Origin: Mesorhizobium sp. AR02 | Lineage (GTDB): Bacteria; Pseudomonadota; Alphaproteobacteria; Rhizobiales; Rhizobiaceae | Direction: 5' to 3' | Length of the DNA stretch: 64,000 nucleotides | Assembly: GCF_024746835.1 (NCBI RefSeq) | Contig: NZ_CP080531.1 | Coordinates: 4,794,001-4,858,000, forward strand | Shown: piece after piece, positions 18,840 to 36,497 of the stretch | How the letters are laid out: every line of letters begins with the position of its first letter | How positions within the stretch are numbered: position 1 is the first letter of the stretch | Program-made: the position numbers and the translations under genes | Notes under the pieces: generated by a model | What the model saw: only the letters and a program-made list of their open reading frames with translations | What the model was told of the DNA's origin: nothing | The model's database searches: none

Positions 18840-19703
18840 TCAGTAGCCGCCTACCGGCCTCGCAATTGAGCGAACAGCCTTCAGAATGGACGAGAGTTCC
18901 TTCGCTGCTCCGCCCTTCACGATAACACCGCATTCAAACGACCGGTCCAGTGCCGATGCCATGAAGTTGCTCGAGCCGATATAAAATAGCTCCTCGTCGG
19001 CGAGAACGACCTTCGCGTGAAATGTCTCCCGCCCGGACGGCAGTGTTGACGGCAGTGCGTACTCGTAAACCAAGACGCCTATCCGTCTGAAGTCGTCTGC
19101 GCGCCGGAGAAAGGCCGCGCCACACTGTGGTTCGCTGAGGGGGCGGCACACCAAATGACGGCGAACGCCAGGCCCGCAGATCGAGAATAGCTCCACTAGG
19201 AGGTCGGCGCCCTGGTTGTCGATGAAGGGGGCAAGGACGACGAAATCACGCTTCGCTGCACGCGCAAGGCGGAAGAAGGCGTCGCTTGTCTGGAACATGA
19301 CCGGCGACAGTGCGTGTAAATTATCAATGGCTTTGCGAAGGTGGCTCTTTTCACCGGGCTCGGTAAGAACCAGTTCGACAACGTTGCGATCCTGGTGAGT
19401 GCGCAAATACGCCGCGATACCCTTCAGATTAGCGGCCAGATTTCGCAAAGTCTGTGGAGCTGCGGTGAGCTTCGTGGAAAAGTGTACCTGCGTAGCAAGG
19501 CCCCCCTCCAAAAGAGAACGACGTGCGATAGCCACATGTTCAGCGGAGACTTCGCCGACGCGTGACGAAAGCGCGACATCGGAACCGCCTAGTCCATCAG
19601 GGACCTCAGCCAGATATGCCAGAATCCGCGAGGCTTGGCGGGCCAACGGCGCAAGACCGTAAAGAAGCGCATTGATATCAGCTTCATTGTCTTGATCTGG
19701 CAT
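18840..19703 (-). CDS. drmC: DISARM-type DrmC, phospholipase D-like protein
   Basis: A 287-aa protein. The C-terminal third carries one PLD/HKD motif: HAKVVLADEELFYIGSSN, followed by FMASALDRSFECGVIV. The N-terminal part is helical (LALLYG-like start, VGEVSAEHVAIARRSLLEGG). DrmC proteins of DISARM have this length and single HKD motif; the family is presumed to be a nuclease and is dispensable in some systems. It is the last gene of the operon, and its start overlaps the drmB end by 20 bp, indicating translational coupling. Confidence 0.8.
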   Translation of the reverse strand: MPDQDNEADINALLYGLAPLARQASRILAYLAEVPDGLGGSDVALSSRVGEVSAEHVAIARRSLLEGGLATQVHFSTKLTAAPQTLRNLAANLKGIAAYLRTHQDRNVVELVLTEPGEKSHLRKAIDNLHALSPVMFQTSDAFFRLARAAKRDFVVLAPFIDNQGADLLVELFSICGPGVRRHLVCRPLSEPQCGAAFLRRADDFRRIGVLVYEYALPSTLPSGRETFHAKVVLADEELFYIGSSNFMASALDRSFECGVIVKGGAAKELSSILKAVRSIARPVGGY

Positions 19704-21921
19704 GGTCTAACGCGAGCTGAAGGTAGCCTCTGATCTGCTCTTCCCCGACGATGAAATCCGGCCTGCCGCGTCCGATCAGTGTCGAACGGCTCAGATATTT
19801 ATTGGCTGTGAGGCAGATAACTTCGGGGATCATAATGCAATCCGGGCAAGCGCCGCCCTTCGTCATACAAAGATTTCCGAGGTTGCATCCCAAGGATGTC
19901 GGATAATTCCTGAGGTAGGATAGAAACGCCTCGTGGTGATTGCGCCACAACGCTGACAAGTCGCCAAGGTCGAGCGTCATTCCGTTACGGTAGACCACGA
20001 AACCCAGATCGCACGGGAACAGATACTCACCAATCGACCCCAGATCGAGACCTGAAAACTGCTGGATGCCCTGCATGATGTAGTGAGAATAGGAATGCAG
20101 CAGTGCGTAAGTCATTGTGTAAATCGTGGCATCCGACTGGCGGTCATGCTCCTCTAGATAGCCACTCATTACCTGAGCTGAGCCCAGCATGGCAGCGGCA
20201 AAGTTATCCGGGTGCTCCGTAAGAAGCCCAATATCAACACACCCCAACGAGGCTTGGGAAAGCCATGCTCGAACCAAAGCTTCGTCCAGCTTAAAATAGA
20301 AAGCTTCGTTCGATTGCTCCAAAACGTAAACCGGATGCCGCGCTTCCTGTGCTACCCGAACTCTCGGAAACAGGTTCAGGCGCACCGGCATCATTCTGCC
20401 GTGCTTATGGATTTTGGGACCGTTTCCGACACGTGAGAATCCATAGCTAAACTTGCAGAGATCGAACTTGCTTATTAGCCCGGCGCGTTCAACGCCCAGA
20501 AATCTCTTGGCCTCCTCGGCTGTCGATATCATCGTCGTACGTTGCGGTGAATTGGGTGTCGCAAGCCATTCGTCGGGGTTGGTGAAGTCGACATAGCTTG
20601 CACGGCCCCCGATGATCCTGCCGCGCAGTTTGGTTCTGGAGAGCGCCTCGTGCTCGACGAGGAGTCTGAAGGGATCATATTTGCCCGTCCATTCGTGCCT
20701 CTCCTGAAGCTTTGCCAGGATGTGCGCCGGCAAAGCGCTATTGCGCTTAAGCCAACCAGCTTTTTGCCAATTGGAAAGCCGCTCGGCTTTCATTTTGGTC
20801 ATTAAATTGGCGACGACCGTGTTTTGATTGTCGGTGGCGAGTTGCAGCCCCTGCAATATTTCATCAAACTCTCTTGCCTCGACCGCCCGGTCCTTGGACA
20901 ACAGTTGCGCTACGACCTCCGCATCGCTGAGCGGCGGTCCCTCCAGCCCAACAATTTGTTCGATTACGCCGGCAAGAAGGTGAGCTTGTCCGGGTTCCAG
21001 AGCTTCGATCCCAGAATTCTCCGGAAAGGTAATGAAGGTGTCGGATTTGACGAAATAGGCCGATGATGCGGCGTAGTTGATTTTCTCCATCGACGCTTCG
21101 CCCACGATATTTCCACCCGGTCCAATCGTGGCTGCGATCCGGCTAAGCGTCTCGTCGCATTTCTCAATCCAGGGGTCAGGGTGCTTCGTTCCACAATTCG
21201 CGCAGGAGAAGGACCAATTCGAAAGGGCGACCTGGTCCTTGTTGAGCACGAACTGGCGAGTTCCGCATTTTCCGCAAAGCGCATATCTTTTGATTGGCCG
21301 CCGCGAGGCCTGATCATAGACCGTCATGTTCGGGCTGGCGGCCTTCCACGATCCCGACCAGTGAGCAAAAATCACATCGAGCTGACCCCATGAGCAGCGC
21401 GTCGGATCGTTCGGCCGCTTGGGGTGTGCGCAAGCCTGACTGAGGTCCGAGAGGCGCTTTCCCATCTGATTGGGATTATCCGTCGCTTCAATCAACCCGC
21501 ACTCACTGCATATCAATGTCGTTGGGCGCGGCAGATATCCCATCCGGTCCGGACGGAAATAGGCAAACACCTCCGGCCGGAAGCCGTATTGTGTTCGAGA
21601 TGTATCCAGCAACGACACATCAATGCAGAAATCGGCAAAAGGAGGTGGGATGTTGGTTTCGTTTTGGCGGCACGCGATGGCCTTATCGAACCATGCGCGC
21701 GCCGCTTCATCGATACGCATTTCAATCTGAACCCGCGTCGTCGGATCAAGCCGGGCCGGCGTGGCATTGGGCGACGGCATTGCCTGGCACGCGCCCGCAG
21801 CGCCTTCGAAGGTGAAGTGCTGCCCTGGTGCGTAGCTCATGGCAATCTGAGCTTGCGAACGAGTCATGGACGGGCCTTTGGCGTCCACCTCGTCGTTCGG
21901 CTGGCTAGGTTGTCTTGCCAT
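19684..21921 (-). CDS. drmB: DISARM-type DrmB (DUF1998 protein)
   Basis: A 745-aa protein. The N-terminal segment (MTRSQAQIAMSYAPGQHFTF) resembles the 'YGPG' start of DrmB. Several zinc-type clusters follow: CSECGLIEATDNPN, CGKCGTRQFVLNKD and CANCGTKHPD. The C-terminal DUF1998 module has LGCNLGNLCMTKGGACPDCI with its four cysteines. DrmB works with DrmA; in published DISARM the DrmAB complex loads on DNA ends and blocks phage DNA. I take the ATG at 21921, 6 bp after the drmA stop; an ATG at 21867 is an alternative. This is the most diagnostic gene of the operon. Confidence 0.82.
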   Translation of the reverse strand: MARQPSQPNDEVDAKGPSMTRSQAQIAMSYAPGQHFTFEGAAGACQAMPSPNATPARLDPTTRVQIEMRIDEAARAWFDKAIACRQNETNIPPPFADFCIDVSLLDTSRTQYGFRPEVFAYFRPDRMGYLPRPTTLICSECGLIEATDNPNQMGKRLSDLSQACAHPKRPNDPTRCSWGQLDVIFAHWSGSWKAASPNMTVYDQASRRPIKRYALCGKCGTRQFVLNKDQVALSNWSFSCANCGTKHPDPWIEKCDETLSRIAATIGPGGNIVGEASMEKINYAASSAYFVKSDTFITFPENSGIEALEPGQAHLLAGVIEQIVGLEGPPLSDAEVVAQLLSKDRAVEAREFDEILQGLQLATDNQNTVVANLMTKMKAERLSNWQKAGWLKRNSALPAHILAKLQERHEWTGKYDPFRLLVEHEALSRTKLRGRIIGGRASYVDFTNPDEWLATPNSPQRTTMISTAEEAKRFLGVERAGLISKFDLCKFSYGFSRVGNGPKIHKHGRMMPVRLNLFPRVRVAQEARHPVYVLEQSNEAFYFKLDEALVRAWLSQASLGCVDIGLLTEHPDNFAAAMLGSAQVMSGYLEEHDRQSDATIYTMTYALLHSYSHYIMQGIQQFSGLDLGSIGEYLFPCDLGFVVYRNGMTLDLGDLSALWRNHHEAFLSYLRNYPTSLGCNLGNLCMTKGGACPDCIMIPEVICLTANKYLSRSTLIGRGRPDFIVGEEQIRGYLQLALDHARSRQ

Positions 21922-21927
21922 AAACGC

Positions 21928-24325
21928 CTACTCCCCGGCTTCTCCGGCCGTCCAACTGTTGTTTCCCCGCATGAGCGCGGACATCACACGGCCAAGATCG
22001 CTTAGACGGATGCGGTCTGAACCCGTTCCAAAGCCGCCTTCAATCAAGCCAGCCTCGCTGACATCTCGCAGGCTCGTCATTGGTCGTGATAACGGCGCCC
22101 CGGGCTGCCTGAAGAACATATCGAGCGTCTCGGTCTTCCAGTTGGACTGTTCCATTGCCGTCGTGGCCCGATCAAAGAGATCGTGGATACGCTGCTTGTA
22201 GAAGTCCTTATTAACGGGAGATGTCGCGTGATAGAGGCCGATGCCATCAACCACAAAATCGCGGAGCTCGTTCAGAAGGTTGATATGATCCGTCCTCGAT
22301 CGTTCGCCGATTTCTCCCACGTTGTCGGGCTCAGCGAGCGCTGCCTTATCCGCCGCCGACCCCGCATGGTTCATGTTCCGGATATAGTCTACGCCGCACA
22401 GCTTGAGCTGTAGGAACGATGCAAGTGTTCGCATGATCGCGTTCTCGGCCCAACGCTCGACCGGGGCTGCGTCGATCATGCGCTCGAGAAAGCGGTGGAA
22501 TATGTCGTGTATCTCAACGATGTACCGGTCGCGACGTTGCTGCGGCGTCGGTATCAGAATGCTCGTGCCGACATGTGCGCGTCCGACACGCGACGACGCC
22601 TGAATATACTCAGCGATGTCTGGCGGCTGTCCGGCAAAAAACATCATGTTGAATTCGTCGACGTCGACACCGTGCGAGATCGCTGACGTCGCAATTACGC
22701 CACGGAGAGCGTTCTGCAAGGCACCGACACTGAAAGGCGTTCCAACAGGGGGCTTGTACGCTGCCTCTGTAACGATTGAGCCGATCAAACCCGCATCGAT
22801 TGCACCGGTAATCAAAGCCGTGCGAACACCTGGGATATCATCGATGCCGGAGAGCCGGTGGTCCCGTCGAATTACGTCCTGGAGCGCAGCCTTGACGTTG
22901 TCGCCGCCTTTCTTGTTGGTGACATAAAGCAGAGCGATGCGGTTAAGGTCGACCACATATGCGATGTGAGCGTGATCAATGTTCTTGTCGAGCAGACAGT
23001 CGCGATGGCCTTGCCAAAAAATGTCTGAAGGAAGGGCATCTGCCAGTGCGCTACGCACGGCCCAACGTGCGTGCTCATCACCGTCGATGAATGTCTTTAG
23101 AAGCTGAGTGATTGTCAGATGAAATGCTGACAGGACCGCAACGGTTGCGGCCGTGTGTGTCCGCCCATTCGTCATTAGCGATACGTAGCGCCGTCGTGTC
23201 GGTGTTCGGTGCTCTACATTAGCGCTGCCATCACGTGCTGAATCACCACTTTGCGGGCGCTGCAACCTTGCATAAAAGCTCTCGTACAAATCCGGTCCCG
23301 GCTGGGGGAACAGGCGAACCTGCCGCTGATAGATTTGATCGATTTGGCGAGCCGGTTCCGAGACAGTAGCCGAGGCTGCGATGATCCTCGGTGGGCGGGC
23401 CGTACCATGTTCGGTGACCACTTGGTCGCCAAGGAGTGGCGCCAACATTCGAAGTGCGTGATGGAACGTCGTTTCAAACAGACCCGAGAATGTGCCCAGG
23501 GACTCGTCCAGTAAGTGGGCCTCGTCTTGGATTTCTAAAAGCGGGTAGGGATCAAAGAGGAGCTTCTTGCCGTTCGAATAGAACGGAAAGACCGCCTCAC
23601 AGCCATGGAGCTCAGGCCCTTTTCGAAATTGTTCGCGAGTGTAGGGAGAAACGAACCGGCCTGACTCAACATGGTGCCACGCAGGATAGCCAAACATGCC
23701 AAGAACCCGAACAAGGGTACGAGCACTCTGTCCGATCAATGCAAGCTTATCGACCGTCCCCAGGAGAATGGCAGGTGCATGCGCGTAAATATCCGAATCC
23801 ATAATGTGGATTGGCAGAGGTGACGGCTTGCCGTCATTGGGGTTTCGGAGGTTCCACTCGCACTCCTTGTTGAAGCAACAATGTGCTAGGCGCTCTTCTT
23901 GCGCGGGCCCTTCGTGAAAACGTCGAAGGCCAATCGTCGAGAAACGCTTACCCTCCACGCCGACGAAACTTCCGGTGCAATATGGGCAGGTTGCCAGCCG
24001 ACGCCATTTCTTTAAATAGACGGCATAGTCCCCGTGGCGGACCGCCATTTCGTCCCAGTCTTTGCTCAGTGACGGTATTTCCGAGACGCCACGGGCATTT
24101 CGGTTATTGGGCGTGTTGCCACCTCCGACCCAAAAGCCGATCTCGAAGCCATTGCCCTTGAAATTCAAGCCCTTCTTTTTCCAGGTCCATCTGACCTGAT
24201 ACGCAGCCGCCAATACCTGCGCGAGGCGCTGCGCTTGTTGGCTCGTAAGAAGGCGCAAGGGATATCGAACAAGCGCACTTATCCCGCGCTCCTTCCCCCG
24301 CAGCCTGTCAAACGCGAGGCAAAAA
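21928..24325 (-). CDS. drmA: DISARM-type DrmA helicase, C-terminal part (after the frame change)
   Basis: About 799 residues that continue the helicase begun in the neighbouring frame. Motifs in order: FDRLRGKERGISALVRYPLR (motif Ia region), LLEIQDEAHLLDESLGTFSG (Walker B DEAH), IIAASATVSEPARQ (motif III), GVIATSAISHGVDVDEFNMM (motif V) and EYIQASSRVGRAHVG (motif VI). These fit the DrmA/DUF1998-associated superfamily 2 helicases. The true coding start is not in this frame: the protein joins the upstream frame at the T-run 24321-24325. The stop lies 6 bp before drmB. Confidence 0.78.
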
Positions 24326-26366
24326 CCAACAACCCAAAGAAGCTTTCCGATTTTCCGCCGCCAGTCGAGAAATAGAGGAGCGTCGCCTCGCGGTCGTCGG
24401 CGGACGTTTGGGCTGGCGAACCCTTCCATGTATCGACGCGCGAAACCACGGCAGCAATTTGGGAAAGGATGAATGCCACCTGGAACAGGCGCCATCCCGT
24501 GACACTCTTGCTTTTTCTTCCCCAGAACTCGCCGAAGGTCTGGTTTGTGAAACGCCACGCAGTGAGTGGCATTACCTCGGGATCATCGTAGGCTTTTCCG
24601 CTCGATTGCGCCTGAAAGGCTTTCTCAAGGATAGCCAGTCCACGCGCGATGGCTTCGCGTTCCGCTCGCCATCCGCGCAAATCGACTTCTTCGAACTGCT
24701 GCTTCTCACGGGCATAGTCTTGGGCATCGGCGACGGGATCGAGGGACTGTGCGTAAGGTCGCGATGCCACGACAGAAGCGAGCCAATCGTCAAAGGCTTT
24801 CAGCAGGCTCCTGAGGACATCAAGGCCACCGTCGTCTGAACCGAGAGCGGTAAAGTCGGGCCCCGGCGTGATGTCAAATTGCCGAACAAGGGGCTGGCAG
24901 TAGACCGGCAGCGATGTGGTCTCGAGGATACGCGCATTCACCAGTCCCCGCCGACGAACGCCGCAGTTGATCCCAAGGGCATCATAGGAGAGAAACTGGT
25001 TGTAACGGTATGACGCTGCAATCCGCTCAAGACGGATGGGACGGTGCAAATCGGGATCGAATTCGGCCGATATTTCGACCTGGAACAGCGTCGCATCAGA
25101 CTCGCGCGCCGCTGCCTGCTTTGCATCAATGAGATCAGATTCGTTCGCCAGAATGATCCGGACCGTCCGTTCATCCGGATGAAGGGGATCTTCCAGATTT
25201 TCATATTCCAGTACGGGTAGAATATGCGGCCTAGCAATTCGACGATTGGTCCGCAGCATGGCCAATGTTTGGTCCCACGCGACAACCTCTGCCGGGACGA
25301 TGGTTCGGCTGTGCATAGCTCTGCCAGCAGGAAACCCCCAAAGCAGCCCGCCGGTCTCGGCGTTGTCGTCAGCCTCCCACGCATCAATTGCGCTCTCCAC
25401 GCGCCGCTGCATCTGGGCGTTGAATTCCGCAATGGATCGCTCGACGGCTTCGCGACTTAATGAGAGGTCGATACGGAAGGAACCGAGCTCGAGCGGAAGA
25501 CGCAGCCACTTTTGTGGAATGTGCTCTCGCTCAATTAGCACATCTGGAGGTGCATCGGTTGCCCCGGGTCCAACCTTGAACTCAAAGGCTTTCAGTGTGT
25601 CGCTATCTGCCGTAGCCGGGCCTCGCGCTTCGGCATTGATCGCGTCGATTGCAGCATCAGGCGCGGTATCGGAATGCTCATCGGATGAGTTCGCCCCACC
25701 CGACTCAGGATCGTCGTTGACAGCAGGATCGTCTGTGCCGGGTGCCTCATCCTCTTCCGAGAGGATAGAAACGAGCACGTCTTCGCGTCCCGGTGAATCT
25801 AGGACCGCAGGCGCAATTCCAAGTTCGAGTAGCGCGGCATTTTCCGCGTCCTTCGTCACGCGATTTTTGATGTCCAGCCATACAGGGCTGTTGCGACCAT
25901 CAGCGCCTAGTATGGCTTTGTTATCTTCCTCTGCCCGGCGGAGCGCTTCACGCCGATGCCTGAGAATGATAGAGCGGGCATTTTTGGCTAACCTGAAAAC
26001 CACGTTCGATGAGGTCAGGTCCTGCGACGTCGGCAGCATGCGAAGATAGATACACGCGCGCAAGGCAACTGTTATGGCCTTGTCCTTCCGGTCTGCTATC
26101 TGAAACGTCAATCCCGCTGTGCCAATGTGGGCCGGAGACGTCACGTCATCTTTCTCTTCATAGGTTGCGGCAGTCTCCGAAGGACGCCTACGTGGCAACA
26201 AATGCTGCGTGTGGATGACTTTTGAGGGTTTGTCGCGATAAATTATGCGGCCGGTAGGGCCTGCGCCTCGCAAGCGATCGTAGACGGTATGCAAGATTGC
26301 GGAGGCCACCGCCTCTTTTGTCGTGTGGGATATGTCGTTGCTGTTTGGGTAGAGAAGCTGCGTCAT
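24279..26366 (-). CDS. drmA: DISARM-type DrmA helicase, N-terminal part with Walker A
   Basis: A 695-aa open frame. Residues about 1-200 are a family-specific N-terminal region (DLTSSNVVFRLAKNARSIIL), residues about 205-250 an acidic Ser/Asp/Glu linker, and the end carries Walker A (LLYFSTGGGKSESFFGLLVF). Fifteen codons later the frame ends at 24279, whereas helicase motif Ia continues in the -1 frame. One extra T in the run at 24321-24325 would join the two into a protein of about 1480 aa. The start overlaps the end of the preceding gene by four bases (ATGA), so the operon is translationally coupled. Confidence 0.78.
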   Translation of the reverse strand: MTQLLYPNSNDISHTTKEAVASAILHTVYDRLRGAGPTGRIIYRDKPSKVIHTQHLLPRRRPSETAATYEEKDDVTSPAHIGTAGLTFQIADRKDKAITVALRACIYLRMLPTSQDLTSSNVVFRLAKNARSIILRHRREALRRAEEDNKAILGADGRNSPVWLDIKNRVTKDAENAALLELGIAPAVLDSPGREDVLVSILSEEDEAPGTDDPAVNDDPESGGANSSDEHSDTAPDAAIDAINAEARGPATADSDTLKAFEFKVGPGATDAPPDVLIEREHIPQKWLRLPLELGSFRIDLSLSREAVERSIAEFNAQMQRRVESAIDAWEADDNAETGGLLWGFPAGRAMHSRTIVPAEVVAWDQTLAMLRTNRRIARPHILPVLEYENLEDPLHPDERTVRIILANESDLIDAKQAAARESDATLFQVEISAEFDPDLHRPIRLERIAASYRYNQFLSYDALGINCGVRRRGLVNARILETTSLPVYCQPLVRQFDITPGPDFTALGSDDGGLDVLRSLLKAFDDWLASVVASRPYAQSLDPVADAQDYAREKQQFEEVDLRGWRAEREAIARGLAILEKAFQAQSSGKAYDDPEVMPLTAWRFTNQTFGEFWGRKSKSVTGWRLFQVAFILSQIAAVVSRVDTWKGSPAQTSADDREATLLYFSTGGGKSESFFGLLVFASRLTGCGGRSAG

Positions 26367-27679
26367 CGGGCGACCGCCTCAAGGCGAATGGCGTTGGCAC
26401 TGGTGGTGGATGCAGGCTCGAGGTCTTTGAAGAGTACCGGATAGACACTGGCGATAGCCTCACGACGCACGGCCCGTAATTTCTCGAATGAAGTATTGGG
26501 GCCTCTCATCAAGCTATCGGCATCGAGAAGGAGCCTATCGAAGAGTCCACGATTGGTATGTCCGTCGCGACGAAGATCACTGCGTACGATGCGGAGAGCA
26601 TCAGCAAGCGGCCGAGCCAAAATCCCGGCGCCCATAAGGCGTAAAAACGCTTCAATATGGATGGGATCAATCGCCGCGTGTGGCGTGTCGACCTCTGACC
26701 GTTCAGCCGCTTGCAACCAGTATTCAACCGCCGCTTTGCTGATGGGAGGCAAGCCGGGGTTTTGCGCAAACAGCATCCCATGAATACGCTGTCCAAGCAT
26801 TTTGGACCCATACTGCTTGGATAGGTCTTCAATGCCCTTTTTCACGGTTGCTTTGTACTGATCGACCAGCGCTTGTTCGAGCGTCCGGCCTTTCTCGTTC
26901 TTTTCGCGCAATGCCGCTTCGATCTCTTCACGGATGATGTCCGACATCACGAACACGGCGTCGTCGATATCAATGGCGCGGGCCTCGCGAGGAGCCAGTT
27001 GATGAGTGACCGGATCAAGGACGTAGAACTGCGATCTTGGCCCTGCGGGAATTTTGCCGTAGCCATCGAGAAGCAGGTAGCCTTGGCCGACGAAGGGCAG
27101 GGCCGCACGGGACCGATCCGCGTCCAAGCCAAGGGCGGCTGACAGCCGGCCCATATCCTTGGCGACCCAAGGCAATGCCTTCAGAAGCAGCTCGGTTCGG
27201 TCGCTGTAAGCTGCGTATTCCGGACCCTGAAGTGCCGCGCTAAGCGTACGGTTCAGGGTCAGCGCGTCATGCCCGGCAACGACAAGCCGGAATTCGGCTG
27301 GACAGTAGCTATCGCCAACATACGCGCGGGCGCCGAGGATCGCCGAGGCTGCCCAGACCACTGTTGTCGGCAGTCGACGCTCGAGTTCAGCGGGATAATT
27401 ACCAGGCGTCGTCACGCGTAATTCAGGGACGCCCGCCTTGAACGTGCCGGGCTCCGTCAGAAAATCCACCAGGAGGTCGTTGGCCAGTTGCGCGTCCTCG
27501 GGATGGCGCAGCACGACAAGCACGTCATTGCTCTGGCTAATCTCCGTCAAGGCGCGCTTGAGATAGCGCATCAGCGGGGTGTCAACGCGAAGCGTTGCCG
27601 CCAGCGCCAATCCCTCGGCGAGATCCGATTGAATGGCGTCGCGCCGTGGTCCCGCATGTCCCTCACCAATCAGCGCCAT
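26363..27679 (-). CDS. First gene of the DISARM-type operon, unknown family (possibly DrmE-like)
   Basis: A 438-aa soluble protein with no motif I can name. It has an alpha/beta segment (SNDVLVVLRHPEDAQLANDL, LPTTVVWAASAILGARAYVG) that resembles the second RecA-like lobe of a helicase without its catalytic motifs, then a long helical C-terminal half. It overlaps drmA by 4 bp, so it belongs to the operon. In class 2 DISARM the accessory gene drmE occupies a comparable place; similarity to the C-terminal part of DrmE is my guess and needs a profile search. It may replace the missing methyltransferase as the system's specificity factor. Confidence 0.6.
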   Translation of the reverse strand: MALIGEGHAGPRRDAIQSDLAEGLALAATLRVDTPLMRYLKRALTEISQSNDVLVVLRHPEDAQLANDLLVDFLTEPGTFKAGVPELRVTTPGNYPAELERRLPTTVVWAASAILGARAYVGDSYCPAEFRLVVAGHDALTLNRTLSAALQGPEYAAYSDRTELLLKALPWVAKDMGRLSAALGLDADRSRAALPFVGQGYLLLDGYGKIPAGPRSQFYVLDPVTHQLAPREARAIDIDDAVFVMSDIIREEIEAALREKNEKGRTLEQALVDQYKATVKKGIEDLSKQYGSKMLGQRIHGMLFAQNPGLPPISKAAVEYWLQAAERSEVDTPHAAIDPIHIEAFLRLMGAGILARPLADALRIVRSDLRRDGHTNRGLFDRLLLDADSLMRGPNTSFEKLRAVRREAIASVYPVLFKDLEPASTTSANAIRLEAVAR

Positions 27680-28380: not shown

Positions 28381-28836
28381 TTACTTCTCCTGGTTCGAGC
28401 GAAGGCCGAAAAACTCAGCGGCTAGGCGTGGCTGCGGCTTGAGCATCTCAATACCGGAAACGATGGCACAGTCACGTCCGGCAGCTGCTGCGAGCAGTGG
28501 CGTGATTGCCGGATTGACGATCACTTCCGCGACGGTTGCGGTTGGCTCGAGAGCCGCGATGTTGAGGGGCAGAGTCCCGCCTTCCTGCATTCCGAGCGTG
28601 GTCGCGTTTACAATCAGGTCCACTCCGGCTGCGACGTCTGGCGCTTCAGCCTCGCAGACTTGCGTTTTGCAGGACAGAATGGAGGCCTGAATGTCTGCGG
28701 CGAGAGCCACCGCTCGATCGGCACTTCGGTTCGCAAGGATCAACTCGCCCAATCCAGCATCAGCCAAGAGAAGGCGATGGCCGCGTGCCACGCCGCCGGC
28801 GCCGATGACGAGCGATCCGACGCCCTCAACCACCAC
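28381..28836 (-). pseudogene. C-terminal remnant of a shikimate dehydrogenase-like gene
   Basis: About 151 residues of the NADP-binding domain: SLVIGAGGVARGHRLLLADA (glycine-rich loop), ELILANRSADRAVALA and VDLIVNATTLGMQEGG, ending in SGIEMLKPQPRLAAEFFGL. The N-terminal catalytic domain, with the substrate-binding Lys and Asp, is missing; upstream the sequence passes directly into a patatin fragment in another frame. The remaining part is too short to be an enzyme. Confidence 0.7.
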
Positions 28837-28840
28837 GCCG

Positions 28841-28981
28841 TTGCAGCGGCGTGTTCGAGACAAGGCCGCCGTCCCAGTAGAATTCGCCGTCGATCTCGAC
28901 GGCGGGGAAGCCAGGCGGAAGCGATCCGCTGCGGTCGCCATCATCGCCAGCAAGTCGCAGGGTGTCGACGAACAGCGACAT
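28841..28981 (-). pseudogene. Remnant of a patatin-like phospholipase
   Basis: The reverse strand reads GSLPPGFPAVEIDGEFYWDG then GLVSNTPLQ, which is the DGG/DGA catalytic-Asp segment of RssA-type patatins. The Ser-containing GxSxG region is absent. It abuts the shikimate dehydrogenase remnant, so at least one deletion joined the two. Confidence 0.65.
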
Positions 28982-29622: not shown

Positions 29623-30693
29623 TCAAGCCGGGAGGCGCCACATTCGCACTCTACCTGTACCACGCAGTTCCGTTTCCGCGAGTGGGTCACAAGCAAAATT
29701 TGGCCCAAGCAGTCTGCGGGTTGCATCCGAAATACGGATCTCATCGGGCTCCGCGGACGTTTGAATACGTGCGGCGAGATTAACGGTCTCGCCCCACAGG
29801 TCGTAGGCAAACCGCCTTTTGCCTATGACGCCCGCGACGATTGGTCCTGAGTGAATTCCAATTCTGAGCCTTAGCCGTTCTCCTGCGAAGCGTTCGTGCT
29901 GAACCGCCTCCCGCAGTTCAAGTGCATAGCGCGCGAGGGCTTCTGCATGATCGGATCGCGCGGCGGGCAGGCCAGCGACCACCATCACACAGTCGCCGAT
30001 TGTCTTGATCTTTTCGCAGCCGTATTGGTCCGACAGCCGATCCGCCGCCTTGAAGAAGTAATTTAGAATAGCGAGCGTCGTCACGGCTCCGACGCTCCGC
30101 GCTCTTTCCGTAAAACCGACGATGTCGGCAAAAAGCACACTCACCTCTGCGTGGTTGTCGGCAATTTGTTCGTCTGACTTTAACCGCTCCGCGATCGACG
30201 CCGGAAGAATGTTGAGGAGCAGGGTTTCGGCGCGCTGGTATTCACGCTGCAATCCCTCTTGGCTCTCCCTCAACGCCTCGTTCATCGATTGTAATTTCTC
30301 GTTGAGTTGACGCTCCCTCTCTTGCAGGAGCGTCATTTCATAAGCCTTCTGTTGAAGCCGCTGCTTATTGTCGCGTTCGGCAGTGGCGTCGAGAAAGAGC
30401 AGCCACACGCAGGCGTTGTCAGCAAAAAGATGAAGGTCCGCGACACGCCCGCTGGGCAGTTCGACCATGGCCATATGATATGGAAGCTCCGGGGAAGGCA
30501 GCAAACCTTCCATGAATTCAAGCTGATCGGCAACAGGCTGACCAATGCGAAGCGATGAGAGCCCGTAATGTTTAACGTTACCGCCCTTCGCAGCTACGCA
30601 AAGCTGGGCGTTAATTTTCAGATATGCGATAGAGTGCTCGTTGTAAAAAAAATTATAAATCCAGCTTCCGACTTCTTTTGGCAATCTGTGCAT
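29623..30693 (-). CDS. Class III adenylate cyclase of the small-GTPase operon
   Basis: A 356-aa protein. Residues 1-115 resemble a PAS-like sensor domain, 115-165 a coiled coil (RERQLNEKLQSMNEALRESQ), and 175-350 a class III cyclase domain. Metal-binding Asp residues are in VLFADIVGFTERA and KTIGDCVMVV, the ATP-specifying Lys and Asp in EKIKTIGD and FAYDLWGETVN, and the transition-state Asn and Arg in ETVNLAARI. All catalytic residues are present, so it should make cAMP. It starts 3 bp after the GTPase stop and is the last gene of the operon, so its output may depend on the GTPase. Confidence 0.88.
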   Translation of the reverse strand: MHRLPKEVGSWIYNFFYNEHSIAYLKINAQLCVAAKGGNVKHYGLSSLRIGQPVADQLEFMEGLLPSPELPYHMAMVELPSGRVADLHLFADNACVWLLFLDATAERDNKQRLQQKAYEMTLLQERERQLNEKLQSMNEALRESQEGLQREYQRAETLLLNILPASIAERLKSDEQIADNHAEVSVLFADIVGFTERARSVGAVTTLAILNYFFKAADRLSDQYGCEKIKTIGDCVMVVAGLPAARSDHAEALARYALELREAVQHERFAGERLRLRIGIHSGPIVAGVIGKRRFAYDLWGETVNLAARIQTSAEPDEIRISDATRRLLGPNFACDPLAETELRGTGRVRMWRLPA

Positions 30694-30696
30694 GGT

Positions 30697-31191
30697 CTAT
30701 TTGGTAACCATCGAAGCAAGTTGACGAAACGCATCATCAACATGTTCACCCGAAAGCGCACTTGTTAGATAGATTTGCCATCCAAGTTGCCTCAGCTCGT
30801 TGATATCACCGTCCGATATTGCCCACCGATCGGCAAGATCGGATTTGTTGAACAGCAATACAAAAGGCATAGTGCCGAATTCGGCCTCGACCCGCTCGCG
30901 CAGCGTGAGCGCCGCGGCAAGAGTAGCGGCGCGGGTTCCATCGACAACAAGCACGAGCCCGGTCGCACCTCGCACATGGCTGACGCGGAATGAGCCGATA
31001 TCGTCTTCGCCGGCCAAATCCCACAAAATCAGATCCACGGTTTTGTCCGGGAATGCGACACTCTTCTTGTCGATTTTCACTCCCACCGTGGTCAAGTAGG
31101 TCTCTGAAAAGATGCTTTGCACAAACCTGCGAACCAGACTCGTCTTTCCGACACCGAACCCGCCCAACATGCAGATCTTCTTTTGCAACAT
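30697..31191 (-). CDS. Rab/Roc-like small GTPase
   Basis: A 164-aa Ras-superfamily GTPase, close to the minimum size. G1 is GGFGVGKTSLVRRF, switch I has YLTTVGVKI, G3 is LWDLAGEDD, G4 is FNKSDL and G5 is TSALSG. The Ras catalytic Gln (DTAGQE) is Glu here (DLAGED), so hydrolysis may need a partner. I chose the ATG at 31191, preceded by ggag; a GTG at 31203 overlaps the stop of the upstream gene by one base. Bacterial Rab-like GTPases control polarity or envelope processes in some phyla. The neighbours suggest that this one links a membrane-to-peptidoglycan protein to a cyclase. Confidence 0.88.
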   Translation of the reverse strand: MLQKKICMLGGFGVGKTSLVRRFVQSIFSETYLTTVGVKIDKKSVAFPDKTVDLILWDLAGEDDIGSFRVSHVRGATGLVLVVDGTRAATLAAALTLRERVEAEFGTMPFVLLFNKSDLADRWAISDGDINELRQLGWQIYLTSALSGEHVDDAFRQLASMVTK

Positions 31192-31202
31192 CTCGAGCTC
31201 CA

Positions 31203-34200
31203 CTAGTCCAGGTTTACCGTAATCGAAACCCGGCGATTGGTGGAGCTCCCGGTTTGACTATTTTCAGGCACCAGCGGCTCAAAGGTGCCCGCGCCCCGGA
31301 CCTGCAGGAGTTCCGGAGCGACGCCGCGCTTGTTGAGAAGTGCACGAACTGTCTCGGCGCGGGCGGAGCTGATAGACGCGTTGGCTGTCTCACGGCCCGT
31401 GGCGTCCGAATGGCCGGTCAACATGAACCGCGCTGTTACGCCTGACTTACGGGCATTTTCGGCGAATTCCTTTATTTGATCCGCCAATCTGTCGAGAACC
31501 GGCGTCTGCTCTGGTCCCGGTACAACTTTGCCGGAATAGAAGAAAATATCGGTCGCCTGGATGGCCTCTCGCAAATCATTAAGTTCTGCAAGGTTCAGCT
31601 CATGCAGCTGCGAGACATCCAGAACCACTCCGTCCGCCGAAAGTTGTTCGGCAGCGGCCCGCGCCCGATTGATCCAGTTGGCAGGAGCCTCACCCACGAC
31701 AACGATGCGACCCTGGATGATCGAAAGCAGAACCGATTTCGGCGGGGTCAGCGAAGCCTCCAGCCGCTTCACCACGAACTTCGGATCAAGGCTCTGATAG
31801 AATTGCCACTGTGAATGAACGCGGGCAGGATCAACCTCCGTTCCGTGCAGCAGAGCTTGCGGGTCGGCGGCTAGCGGGTCTCTCAGGCCCGAAATGTAGA
31901 AATGTCCGCCCCTCTGCGTTTGCTGGGCGACGATGATTCCCGGTTGGGCCTCAAGTCGCGACACATAATACTGCCAATGCTCCGCCGCGCGCGCTTCGGG
32001 GCTCACATCGCGAACCTTGGAGATGTCGAATTCCGGCCCGCCTGCCGAAAGCTGTCGGGCCGCCGCGCGCGCCTGATCTATCCAGGTGTCGGGAGCCTCA
32101 CCCTCGGCAACGATGCGATCATTGACGATCGAAAGTCGCACTGTATCCGGCGGATATAGCGACGCGGTCAGCCGCTTCAACACGAACTGCGGCTCAAGGC
32201 TTTGATAGAATTGCCACTGCGAATGAACGCGGGCGGGATCGACCTGCGTTCCAGACAACAGCGACTGCGGGTCGGCGCCAAGCGGGTCTCTCAGGCCGGC
32301 AATATAGAATTGGCCGTCGCGTATCTTTTGCTCCGCAACGATGATGCCCGGCTGGGTCCCCAGTCGCGACACATAGGCCTGCCAGCGATCCGCCTCGCGT
32401 TCCTCGGAGCTTACATCACGGACCCTGGAGATATCGAATACCGGCCCGCCTGCCGAAAGCTGCTGGGCGGCGGCCTGCGCCCGGTTGATCCACGTGGCAG
32501 GAGCCTCGCCTTCGGCAACGATGCGATCATTGACGATCGAAAGTCGTACTGTATCCGGCGGAGCCAGCGACGCCGTCAGCCGCTTCAACACGAACTCCGG
32601 CTCAAGGCTCTGATAGAACCGCCACTGCGAATGAACCCGGGCGGGATCGACCTGCGTTCCCGACAGCAGCGACTGCGGGTCGGCGGCAAGCGGGTCTCTC
32701 AGGCCGGCAATATAGAATTGGCCGTCGCGTATCTTCTGTTCTGCAACGATGATGCCCGGCTGGGTCCCCAGTCGAGACACATAGGCCTGCCAGCGATCTG
32801 CCTCGCGTTCTTCGAGGCTTACATCACGGACCCTGGAGATATCGAATACCGGCCCGCCTGCCGAAAGCTGCTGGGCGGCGGCTTGGGCCCGGCTGATCCA
32901 AGCGGCACTCGCCTCACCTTCGGCGACGATGCGATCCTTGACGATCGAAAGTCGCACTGTATCCGGCGGAACCAGCGACGCGGTTAGCCGCTTCAACACG
33001 AACTCCGGCTCAAGGCTCTGATAGAATTTCCACTGCGAATGAACGCGGGCAGGATCAACCTCCGTTCCGTGCAGCAGAGCTTGCGGGTCGGCGGCAAGCG
33101 GGTCTCTCAGGCCGGCAATATAGAATTGGCCATAGCTTACCTTTTGTTCCGCAACGATGATGCCCGGCTGGGTCTCCAGTTGCGACACATAGGCCTGCCA
33201 GCGCTGCCCGGATTGCCAGGAAAGAAGGAACCAGCCGCCCGCCGGAACCAAAAGCAGCAGGGCTGCAACCACTACCAGCCACGGAAACCCCTGGTTTGAT
33301 TCCTCCTGCTTCAGCTCAACGCACGTCTGCAATTGTGCCTCTACGCCGGCCAACTGCGAACTGTCGCCGTCAAACTCCCCTAAAGCCTGTGAGCATTCCT
33401 CATGGATGCGAAGCAATACATCGCGAACTATTTCATGTAATTCCTCTGGTGGATTTCCTCGGATCACCGAAACCAAGGTCGCAAACTGTCCAACTTCTGA
33501 CCAGAGACGAAGGTCACCAAGACGGATAGTGTCCAGACTGCTCTGTTCTTTTTCGTTAAATGAGTCTTTCACAAAATCTTGAATTGCACTAAGCATCGAA
33601 GAAATAAGCTGAGGATCCTCGCTCGTTGCGTTGTCGGCAGCTACATGCGATATCAAAAGTCCAGAAGTTCGGCTAATGAGAAAGACATGTTCTACGCGAT
33701 ATACAAGAGAATGCTTAAGAACAACTTCAGAAAAGCTAGCGCCGGTTCTCCAAGATTCAAATCTCCACTTGAGCCCGTGCCAGGTAAATATATGTCGTAA
33801 AGTTTCATTCAGCGACTGAAAGGTCTGGTCGATCTTTTCCCCGATCGACTTGCGAATTGCCGGCAGAAACACCGGGTATAATATATCCGTCAGCGTGCGC
33901 GGGCTCTTCTGGATCGACCGTTGCACAGCCCTTTCGACAGCTGGCGCAAGGGCTTCGCCGAGTTGCGCATGAGGCGCTCGTGCGGCCGCACTGGGAAGAA
34001 CGTCGCCCACGGCTGCCGCGAGCTGCTCCGGTTCGTCCAGCAGATGCGTAACTCGTGAAAGCTCTGAAATTTCGCGGCTGACCAGCAACTGGCGCAGCGT
34101 TTCCATGCGAGGATCGGCGCTTGGAACTCCGTCGAAACGCGCACGGTAGTCCGGATCAACATTCCGGGCAACTTCGATCAAAAGACGAGCCAGAGCCTCG

Positions 34201-34268
34201 CGATCAATCTCTGTATCGTTCGAGGCTGTTCTTTGCGGAAGGCTGATTGGGTCGACGGTCGACGTCAA
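31203..34268 (-). CDS. Inner-membrane to peptidoglycan protein: longin-like region, four tandem repeats, OmpA domain
   Basis: A 1021-aa protein. Residues about 1-340 are cytoplasmic; the part around SLVYRVEHVFLISRTSGLLI and AIQDFVKDSF resembles longin/roadblock folds that bind small GTPases. One membrane helix follows (PWLVVVAALLLLVPAGGWFL). The periplasmic part has four 136-aa repeats that begin RWQAYVSRL, each with FYIAGLRDPLAADPQ and a BON-like half (PPDTVRLSIVNDRIVAEGEA). The C-terminus is an OmpA domain (RFMLTGHSDATGRETANASI, SSTNRRVSITVNLD) that should bind peptidoglycan. It starts 7 bp after the coiled-coil gene. I infer that it carries envelope information to the GTPase. Confidence 0.85.
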   Translation of the reverse strand: MTSTVDPISLPQRTASNDTEIDREALARLLIEVARNVDPDYRARFDGVPSADPRMETLRQLLVSREISELSRVTHLLDEPEQLAAAVGDVLPSAAARAPHAQLGEALAPAVERAVQRSIQKSPRTLTDILYPVFLPAIRKSIGEKIDQTFQSLNETLRHIFTWHGLKWRFESWRTGASFSEVVLKHSLVYRVEHVFLISRTSGLLISHVAADNATSEDPQLISSMLSAIQDFVKDSFNEKEQSSLDTIRLGDLRLWSEVGQFATLVSVIRGNPPEELHEIVRDVLLRIHEECSQALGEFDGDSSQLAGVEAQLQTCVELKQEESNQGFPWLVVVAALLLLVPAGGWFLLSWQSGQRWQAYVSQLETQPGIIVAEQKVSYGQFYIAGLRDPLAADPQALLHGTEVDPARVHSQWKFYQSLEPEFVLKRLTASLVPPDTVRLSIVKDRIVAEGEASAAWISRAQAAAQQLSAGGPVFDISRVRDVSLEEREADRWQAYVSRLGTQPGIIVAEQKIRDGQFYIAGLRDPLAADPQSLLSGTQVDPARVHSQWRFYQSLEPEFVLKRLTASLAPPDTVRLSIVNDRIVAEGEAPATWINRAQAAAQQLSAGGPVFDISRVRDVSSEEREADRWQAYVSRLGTQPGIIVAEQKIRDGQFYIAGLRDPLGADPQSLLSGTQVDPARVHSQWQFYQSLEPQFVLKRLTASLYPPDTVRLSIVNDRIVAEGEAPDTWIDQARAAARQLSAGGPEFDISKVRDVSPEARAAEHWQYYVSRLEAQPGIIVAQQTQRGGHFYISGLRDPLAADPQALLHGTEVDPARVHSQWQFYQSLDPKFVVKRLEASLTPPKSVLLSIIQGRIVVVGEAPANWINRARAAAEQLSADGVVLDVSQLHELNLAELNDLREAIQATDIFFYSGKVVPGPEQTPVLDRLADQIKEFAENARKSGVTARFMLTGHSDATGRETANASISSARAETVRALLNKRGVAPELLQVRGAGTFEPLVPENSQTGSSTNRRVSITVNLD
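31574..33205 (-). repeat. Four 408-bp in-frame tandem repeats in the OmpA-family gene
   Basis: The motif gaatgaac recurs at 31813, 32221, 32629 and 33037, exactly 408 bp apart, and long stretches around it are nearly identical. The two central copies are the most alike, so recent duplication or gene conversion is likely. Copy number may vary between strains. Confidence 0.85.
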
Positions 34269-34275
34269 GGTCCCA

Positions 34276-34965
34276 TCAACTCGCTTTCCAACTACGGTCC
34301 GAGTTGCTCTTGCTGCCGACAGGATCCTGATTCAGGCATTTTGCAACCTCGACAAACAGGCCAGCCAAAAGATTTCGGTCGGTCTTGACATTGCTGAGAT
34401 CGGCAAACATTTTCTCTATCAGCATCTGAACGCCTTCATTCTTCTGCTTGATTTCCTCACGCAGTAAATGATCGTTTCGATTTATCCGGTCCGAAACGTC
34501 GCGCTCAAGCGCGCTCAATTGATCCGACAACGCGCGCACCTGCTTTTCAAGTGCCTGGTTTTGCTCGCGCAGATTCCGATCAATCTCCTTGTCGGCGTCG
34601 GCTCGTGAATCTTTTTCGTTCCGCAATTGCCCCGCAAGCGAATCGACCTGCTTCTTTGCATTTGACTCGTACATGTCGAGATTGCGCTTGGCCTCGGATT
34701 CGACATCCTTGAAGCGCTGTAAGACCCGTTCTTCGAGCTTGGAGAAGCGGCGGTCATAGTCCTGCATCTGGTTGCCGAACAGCAGATCACGTATCTTGTC
34801 GACACCTACAGCGTCGCCGGAGCCCCCGTTTTCGCGAGCCTGGACCCCCATGAAGTTCAGACCGTTTCCTTCTGCGTTACCTATCAGATTTCCGTCCGCC
34901 TTCTTTTCTGAAGAAACGGAATTCGAAGATTCCTTTGCCATGCTTTTGCCCTTCCGTTTGAACAT
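34276..34965 (-). CDS. Coiled-coil protein, first gene of the small-GTPase operon
   Basis: A 229-aa soluble protein. Residues about 1-60 are Ser/Asn/Gly-rich and probably unstructured. Residues about 70-190 form a charged coiled coil (SKLEERVLQRFKDVESEAKR, EIDRNLREQNQALEKQVRAL). The C-terminal part (LLAGLFVEVAKCLN) is helical. I take the ATG at 34965; an ATG at 34941 is an alternative. No family is recognised. Its place 7 bp before the membrane-protein gene suggests a scaffold or effector of the GTPase. Confidence 0.75.
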   Translation of the reverse strand: MFKRKGKSMAKESSNSVSSEKKADGNLIGNAEGNGLNFMGVQARENGGSGDAVGVDKIRDLLFGNQMQDYDRRFSKLEERVLQRFKDVESEAKRNLDMYESNAKKQVDSLAGQLRNEKDSRADADKEIDRNLREQNQALEKQVRALSDQLSALERDVSDRINRNDHLLREEIKQKNEGVQMLIEKMFADLSNVKTDRNLLAGLFVEVAKCLNQDPVGSKSNSDRSWKAS

Positions 34966-35405: not shown

Positions 35406-36497
35406 TCAGGGCTCCAAGTCGGTAGACGGACTGTTGCGTTGTGCCGCGCCGCGCCGCTCGAGCGCGGTCTTGCGGATGATTTCCGCGATCTCCGGGCTGC
35501 TGCCGCACAGCATCTGGAAATCCGCCGAGTGCAGCGACAGGAGTGAGACCACCGTTGCGGCGCTGACGGTCGCCGACCGCGGTTCGCCGTTGATCAGCGC
35601 CATCTCGCCGAAGAAGGCGCCAGGGCCAAGCTCCACCGGATTCGGCGTCGCGACGCTGACGCGCCCCTCCACGACGAAGAACATCTGATCACCGGCCTCG
35701 CCAATGCGGCAGATCACGGCGCCGGCCGGCACCGTGCGAGCTCTTAACGCGCGCACGATCTCGACCAGCACGGCCGGGCCGAGCTTCTGAAACAACGGCA
35801 CGGCGGCGACCAATTGCCAATTGCGGACGAAATCCCCGCGACGGACTTCTTGATAGAAGCCCGTGGCAAGAATGCCGGCCCAGAGCCCGAAGATACCGAT
35901 GCCACTCATCATGACCGCCCCGGCAAGGACGCGGCCGGCGAAGCTTTGCGGGATAGTGTCGCCATAACCGGTCGTGGAAAGCGTGACCACCGCCCACCAC
36001 ATTGCCTGGGGGATGCTGCCGAACTTTTCCGGTTGGATGTCGCGCTCGATGACATAGGCCGCGAGCGCGACAGCGAACAGAACGACGCCGAAAAGCGTGG
36101 TGACGCCGATCAGATTGCGCGCTTCATTGGCCAGGACCCTGCCCAGCACCGGGAAGAACGTCGAGTCGCGCAGCGGTTTCAGCAGCCAGACAGCACAGTA
36201 GAGGCCCCGGTCGGGCGTGCCGACGAGCAGAAATGCGGCGAGTGGAACCAAGACCGCGAGCACATCGATGGCGATTTTGGGCGTCCTGTCCCGAAGGTCT
36301 CCCGTCCGGCGCTTGAGCAGCGTCGCGCCCAGTTGCAGGAGATAGGCGCCCCAGATGACAGCGAGCAGGGCAGCCAGAGCCAGTCTGCTTCGTCCGGACA
36401 TGTCCGGTATCGTGAGCGCTGCCATCGCCAGAAGCCCAGGCGCAGCCAGCACCGCGTTGAGCGGCGCGTAAATTCTTAAGAAAGGCATTACCGACAT
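35406..36497 (-). CDS. mloK1: Cyclic-nucleotide-gated K+ channel, MloK1 ortholog
   Basis: A 363-aa protein with six membrane helices (S1-S6), the selectivity filter in VVTLSTTGYGDTIPQSF, a short linker (FYQEVRRGDFVRNWQL) and a C-terminal cyclic-nucleotide-binding domain with the phosphate-binding FFGEMALINGEPRSATV including the key Arg. The sequence is nearly identical, as I recall it, to the Mesorhizobium loti channel MlotiK1, whose structure is known and which opens on cAMP. Its physiological role is unclear. Its position beside an adenylate cyclase operon suggests a local cAMP source. It has its own orientation-matched transcription unit. Confidence 0.92.
   Translation of the reverse strand: MSVMPFLRIYAPLNAVLAAPGLLAMAALTIPDMSGRSRLALAALLAVIWGAYLLQLGATLLKRRTGDLRDRTPKIAIDVLAVLVPLAAFLLVGTPDRGLYCAVWLLKPLRDSTFFPVLGRVLANEARNLIGVTTLFGVVLFAVALAAYVIERDIQPEKFGSIPQAMWWAVVTLSTTGYGDTIPQSFAGRVLAGAVMMSGIGIFGLWAGILATGFYQEVRRGDFVRNWQLVAAVPLFQKLGPAVLVEIVRALRARTVPAGAVICRIGEAGDQMFFVVEGRVSVATPNPVELGPGAFFGEMALINGEPRSATVSAATVVSLLSLHSADFQMLCGSSPEIAEIIRKTALERRGAAQRNSPSTDLEP

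Follow-up and report, generated by a model that had tools for sequence, protein, structure and literature searches.

A Rup GTPase gene set of Mesorhizobium with a predicted longin domain, a class III cyclase output and an adjoining MloK1-type channel gene

In the Group 1 Rup systems described by Wuichet and Søgaard-Andersen (2014, PMC4316618), the rup gene lies beside genes for a coiled-coil protein, a protein with an unknown domain that often carries a transmembrane (TM) helix and an OmpA domain, and an output protein. According to the article text, the outputs are typically cyclic di-GMP (c-di-GMP) enzymes (GGDEF/EAL fusions) or histidine kinases, with an invariant N-terminal Gln; the GTPase lacks the Gln of the G3 motif, and the authors suggest that it is supplied in trans. 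A Mesorhizobium loti member is named in the group, and as of 2014 no Rup GTPase had been characterised experimentally; our literature searches found no later experimental work on these GTPases. Here we describe a four-gene set from Mesorhizobium sp. AR02, in a stretch of 64,000 nucleotides (the window; contig NZ_CP080531.1, positions 4,794,001 to 4,858,000). Its GTPase size, G3 motif, gene neighbourhood and output Gln identify it, at the level of sequence, as a Group 1 Rup system; a preliminary description had held that no system of this composition was known, a possibility ruled out by the 2014 paper. What appears to be new beside the known gene set is the longin domain predicted for the partner protein, together with an adjoining MloK1 gene. 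We read the set as a switch with an adenylate cyclase output that would carry a signal from the cell envelope to cyclic AMP (cAMP) and act on MloK1, and hold this reading with somewhat better than even confidence.

As first described, the four open reading frames (ORFs) share one strand, the minus strand, where the coiled-coil gene comes first and is followed by those for the OmpA protein, the GTPase and the cyclase (Table 1). The spacing of 7, 11 and 3 bp given for them is correct if the GTPase starts at the ATG at 31191, which is most likely because nearly all of its closest relatives are 163–164 aa long. Pfam recognised Ras in the GTPase (1.6e-27), OmpA in the membrane protein (PF00691, 6.5e-11) and Guanylate_cyc in the cyclase (2e-49). 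The 229-aa product of the first gene gave no significant Pfam match (best E 0.021), and is taken as a coiled-coil-type protein with a putative coil. At 164–168 aa, the single-domain Ras-superfamily GTPase falls inside the Group 1 range of 150–240 aa, and the Rab-like character first ascribed to it accords with its nearest solved chains, Rab-23 (1.4e-23) and then Rab-6 (among the best 60 of 590 matches). Its closest named relatives are mostly from Mesorhizobium. The G3 motif reads DLAGED, with Glu at the place of the catalytic Gln (alignment A1; the GTPase profile was made without L079, which is in the wrong frame in A1, and alignment A2 without L079 and the diverged Hyphomicrobiales rows).

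The 1021-aa membrane protein consists of a helical N-terminus, a predicted longin domain, one TM helix, four BON-like repeats and an OmpA domain. A longin-like cytoplasmic region had been proposed from the sequence, and the predicted structure, which matches the longin fold, bears this out (sequence comparison, taken up below, gave no support). The proposal of an OmpA-ended spanning protein with repeats likewise stands: besides the PF00691 match there are four real repeat copies, at exact 408-nt spacing and 77–80% identical to the reference copy, and the OmpA domain, by analogy with its family, suggests peptidoglycan binding. Pfam BON had no match in the window protein, and because the repeats lack such a match of their own, the BON reading depends on a family profile and, weakly, on fold similarity of the predicted model to DolP (rank 34). 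The profile (A4; 6/66 references left out, namely L090, L091, L123, L155, L183 and L184, with the window and L068 added) matched OsmY (4.7e-6), OmpATb (1e-4) and DolP (4e-4) in the repeat part. OmpATb/ArfA (Rv0899), like the window protein, joins BON to OmpA within a single membrane protein; we take it to have the same BON-then-OmpA order, to be without a longin domain and to lie in a different gene neighbourhood. Close relatives of the membrane protein (E < 1e-200) occurred in 23/37 genus genomes, the window genome counted. Their open frames formed two size groups, 1017–1042 and 887–896 aa (G025 and G028, broken over frames or contigs, fall outside both), and repeat number therefore appears to vary. 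A literature search on longin plus OmpA, judged by titles and abstract starts, found nothing on such a protein.

A predicted longin fold encoded beside a Rab-like GTPase recalls the longin modules that regulate eukaryotic Rabs (TRAPP, Mon1-Ccz1, Fuzzy-Inturned), and would make the window domain a candidate guanine nucleotide exchange factor (GEF); unlike those modules, it is membrane-anchored, fused to OmpA and paired with an enzyme output. MglA/MglB and the actinobacterial conservons likewise combine a small GTPase with a profilin-like partner domain and a signalling output; the window set differs from them in its Rup-type G3, in having the partner domain inside a membrane protein and in its output coupling. 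Presumably the Thr78 position of MglA is that of the G3 Asp, which the window GTPase retains (Asp62), with no MglA-type Thr replacement. The set might still be a polarity or motility switch like MglA in Myxococcus, with the GTPase using the wall-bound longin protein to mark an envelope site and the output merely reporting it; we consider this unlikely, since outputs across the family comprise enzymes and regulators from several kinds of signalling and Rup keeps the G3 Asp, whereas Thr78 of MglA replaces a highly conserved residue (PMC3000849). Zhang and others (2012, PMC3521125) trace longin domains to prokaryotic MglB-like domains. As far as the article text of PMC4316618 goes, in which the word ‘longin’ is absent and ‘cyclase’ begins a word once, the window set agrees with Group 1 in its GTPase without G3 Gln, its coiled-coil-type protein, its domain-TM-OmpA protein and its output with N-terminal Gln; it differs in that the formerly unknown domain is a predicted longin, in the four BON-like repeats, in the adjoining MloK1 gene and in the class III cyclase, an output that the supplement may list.

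The gene order recurs across phyla, indicating that the four-gene arrangement is more than chance. The Rup GTPase was found in 80/146 genus genomes (E 1e-30) and 49/398 phylum genomes (E 1e-10). Thirty-five regions were fetched, chosen for a match to the GTPase or the OmpA protein, and L093 (short contig, no GTPase) was left out; in the remaining 34, the OmpA protein lay ≤3.5 kb upstream of the GTPase in 33, the coiled-coil gene ≤6.5 kb upstream in 32 and a recognised output ≤3.5 kb downstream in 24, with all partners in 22. When named genomes were scanned with a query alignment headed by a Nostoc GTPase, at least 533 confirmed relatives emerged from at least 590 stretches. The best 80 were kept, some truncated by contig ends: 70 cyanobacteria, five Campylobacterota and one each from Gracilibacteria, Chlorobi, Bacteroidetes, Anaerolineales and Caldithrix, with the OmpA protein in 65, the coiled-coil gene in 55, a recognised output in 59 and all of these in 42. 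The coiled-coil hidden Markov model (HMM) had 15 members (window, 13 fetched regions, Nostoc plasmid locus), and its matches upstream of the GTPase comprise 55/80 named loci, none used in building it, and 32/34 fetched regions, of which 13 were used. A diverged set from the same bacterial order (L083–L087, L091, L092, L094, L095) also runs coiled-coil, longin-OmpA-type protein, GTPase; its G3 reads DTDGD in six of nine, a histidine kinase comes next in L084 and L091, and the other seven are without a recognised output. The window genome (8.9 Mb, four contigs) yielded no second Rup GTPase with the window GTPase and a diverged one as queries. That the set is only plasmid-borne was rejected, because four plasmid records match, yet the window copy sits on a 7.5-Mb contig; phage carriage was rejected after a scan of viral contigs that used the window GTPase alone as query, and so could reach no more than close relatives, returned three pattern matches and no confirmed relative. 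A promoter scan (one site found, 2.5 expected) was uninformative.

The reading of the last gene as a cyclase output holds up. Besides its Pfam match the cyclase has the class III catalytic residues, with D190, D234, N305 and R309 invariant in 23 rows and K230 and D298 present in the window. We take these to be the metal-binding Asp residues (D190/D234), the transition-state pair (N305/R309) and the Lys-Asp purine pair (K230/D298). In the predicted model a PAS-like domain and a long helix precede the catalytic part. When output N-termini were aligned by HMM, the column of Q115 of the window cyclase held Gln in 103/103 rows (103 different sequences, found with the same output profile and many of them close relatives), and that of Q111 in 93/103. 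Q115 would be the same invariant Gln as in the logo of PMC4316618. That profile drew on 13 outputs belonging to five kinds (cyclase, histidine kinase, HD-GYP, GGDEF-EAL and SpoIIE), and it recovered plain GGDEF and sigma-54 outputs though none had been put in. An independent search with the window cyclase N-terminus alone returned seven SpoIIE-type proteins (41–46% identity) and one histidine kinase (37%); of 42 proteins from this search, eight were used in alignment A5.

Output swapping was seen throughout the 116 loci (34 fetched regions, 80 named loci and two plasmid loci). By small in-house profiles, the first recognised output was a histidine kinase in 42, a class III cyclase in 24, GGDEF in six, GGDEF-EAL in four, HD-GYP in two, SpoIIE in one and unassigned in six; 31 had none. 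Pfam agreed for seven of ten output proteins checked, the others (L172 and L173, unassigned; L181, none) being sigma-54 AAA+ proteins. Three loci with no profile-recognised output (L091, L138, L181) yet have a kinase or sigma-54 protein, and in some gamma loci seemingly without an output the next gene encodes a GGDEF-EAL, HD-GYP or kinase output. Eight cyanobacterial loci (L143, L145, L148, L157, L158, L163, L167, L175) have tandem outputs, a kinase then a class III cyclase, both matching the output N-terminus profile. One Mesorhizobium genome has a second Rup set (L096, G027) with a SpoIIE-type output replacing the cyclase; on contig C2 of G000, four other class III cyclase genes, of seven in the genome, lie 23–38 kb from the set's own; and on plasmid pWSM1497 (L104) cyclase genes directly follow the Rup set.

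Contrary to the 2014 rule, the catalytic Gln place of the GTPase held Gln in seven of the 116 loci (L122, L126, L140, L141, L151, L161, L169); it was unreadable in one. All seven are cyanobacterial. A downstream output was recognised in 2/7, compared with 49/63 other cyanobacterial loci (p 0.014, kinship uncorrected); among the five without one, L122 instead has its output on the upstream side. This difference fits, weakly, a Gln supplied in trans.

The gene 440 bp upstream of the set, on the same strand, encodes a protein matching PDB chain 2zd9_A (Mll3241) over residues 1–353 (E 9.4e-214), and by this match is MloK1 or its ortholog. MloK1, the Mll3241 K+ channel of Mesorhizobium loti, is modulated by cyclic nucleotides and changes conformation with cAMP (PMC5034309); a literature search without the 2004 Journal of General Physiology MloK1 paper found no link to the Rup set. 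At cut-offs of E 1e-60 (channel) and E 1e-30 (GTPase), 54 of 146 Mesorhizobium genomes have both, five the channel alone, 26 the GTPase alone and 61 neither (p 2.9e-14, kinship uncorrected). Where both occur, they share a contig in 25 and lie ≤5 kb apart on the same strand in nine. The channel is upstream of the set in the window and in G480 (L190; ~415 bases between tblastn match ends) and downstream in G328, G461, G466, G490, G497, G504 and G509 (L186–L189, L191–L193; 184, 275, 185, 147, 68, 68 and 69 bases), true gaps differing by a few bases; in three further genomes it lies 11–19 kb from the set, once on the opposite strand. As the GTPases of G328 and G461 are 97–98% identical to the window's while the channel is on the opposite side, adjacency seems to have outlived rearrangement. 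Towards its end the channel match crosses a single stop codon in many relatives, probably because the window channel has a longer ending. A cyclic-nucleotide-binding protein occurred in the fetched stretch of only 2/24 cyclase-output loci, one of them MloK1 (L102); this rules out that such proteins accompany cyclase outputs generally, and the channel link is therefore a Mesorhizobium matter.

Under the reading we favour, the membrane protein would be fixed to the cell wall by its OmpA domain, and its BON-like repeats would cross the periplasm and relay the state of the envelope through the single TM helix. The cytoplasmic longin domain, a natural candidate for the GTPase regulator, may load or place Rup, acting as a GEF, a GTPase-activating protein (GAP) or a docking platform. 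Rup-GTP would then activate the cyclase by binding its PAS-like domain and Gln helix, the candidate coupling piece. The active site of the GTPase may be completed by the invariant Gln, in which case the output would also end the signal. The product would be cAMP, acting on MloK1 as candidate effector and perhaps on other cAMP receptors.

Several observations weigh against this reading. The family profile search gave no sequence-level match to longin chains, which makes the longin case one of fold. Beside the GTPase, 31/116 loci have no profile-recognised output, and the five output kinds from which the N-terminus profile was made match it partly by construction. L140 and L141 hold both the G3 Gln and the output Gln, so that cis and trans Gln are not simple replacements of each other. 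Finally, the channel is not within 5 kb in 45/54 genomes with both genes (in 29 of the 45 it is on a different contig), and either gene occurs without the other. It is possible, though less likely than not, that the link is accidental, both genes riding the same variable regions and the cyclase serving other cAMP targets: the genes are apart in most genomes that have both, pWSM1497 has no channel annotated beside its set, and other class III cyclases lie nearby. Chance placement is harder to square with nine close cases on both sides of the set, always on the same strand and with match ends down to 68 bp apart, and with the strong co-occurrence in the genus, itself uncorrected for kinship.

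The surroundings of the set bear on a further alternative. DISARM-like genes (DrmA, DrmB and DrmC models, DrmA matching in two overlapping ORFs) lie in the window, and with the nucleotide-gated membrane protein next door and a match of PycC models to the cyclase (5.5e-15) they could indicate an anti-phage system of Pycsar type, in a defence island, with the channel as effector; Pycsar systems pair a dedicated cyclase with an effector and use cCMP or cUMP. We regard this as very improbable: any class III cyclase may give a PycC match, the channel's match to MloK1 is almost full-length, and elsewhere the same switch has histidine kinase, GGDEF, HD-GYP, SpoIIE and sigma-54 outputs, fitting general signalling. 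Adjoining the DISARM-like genes is a gene for a 438-aa protein (no Pfam match at E 1, no PADLOC match at E 0.1), and a 190-aa ORF, whose shikimate dehydrogenase-type match is weak (6.7e-5, below the Pfam cut-off), is perhaps a gene remnant.

Table 1. Features of the Rup gene set and neighbouring genes, in window coordinates.
Feature	Position	Strand	Basis
Coiled-coil-type cytoplasmic protein, 229 aa, first gene of set	34276-34965	(-)	ORF list
OmpA-type membrane protein, 1021 aa from TTG start	31203-34268	(-)	ORF list
Predicted longin domain, residues 189-322	33303-33704	(-)	fold of predicted structure
TM segment, ~residues 331-352	33213-33278	(-)	hydrophobic stretch by eye, inside the model's long helix (residues 330-366)
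Four BON-like repeats, 136-aa period, putatively periplasmic	31612-33135	(-)	408-nt spacing
OmpA-type domain, residues 919-1012	31233-31514	(-)	PF00691 6.5e-11
Rup small GTPase, 168 aa from GTG start, 164 aa from ATG at 31191	30697-31203	(-)	ORF list
Class III nucleotide cyclase, 356 aa; predicted PAS-like domain (residues 22-102), then long helix (104-162)	29623-30693	(-)	ORF list; PAS-like fold of predicted model
Codon of invariant Gln (Q115)	30349-30351	(-)	HMM alignment of output N-termini
MloK1-type cyclic-nucleotide-gated K+ channel, candidate effector	35406-36497	(-)	9.4e-214 to 2zd9_A
DISARM-like genes	18840-26366		DrmA, DrmB, DrmC models
438-aa protein	26363-27679		
190-aa ORF	28381-28953		weak shikimate dehydrogenase-type match

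The channel link offers MloK1 a candidate cyclase and a possible stimulus. The predicted longin partner is a candidate Rup regulator, and a Rab-longin pairing in many bacterial phyla would bear on the origin of eukaryotic Rab control. A Gln-bearing N-terminus on seven kinds of output would make coupling testable by one kind of assay. More tentatively, and on the doubtful side, Group 1 Rup may be a bacterial counterpart of the Rab-longin pair, driving exchangeable enzymes through a PAS-Gln adaptor that serves as both effector and GAP, and in Mesorhizobium forming a five-gene electrical circuit from envelope state through cAMP to the opening of MloK1, which would give that channel a physiological input.

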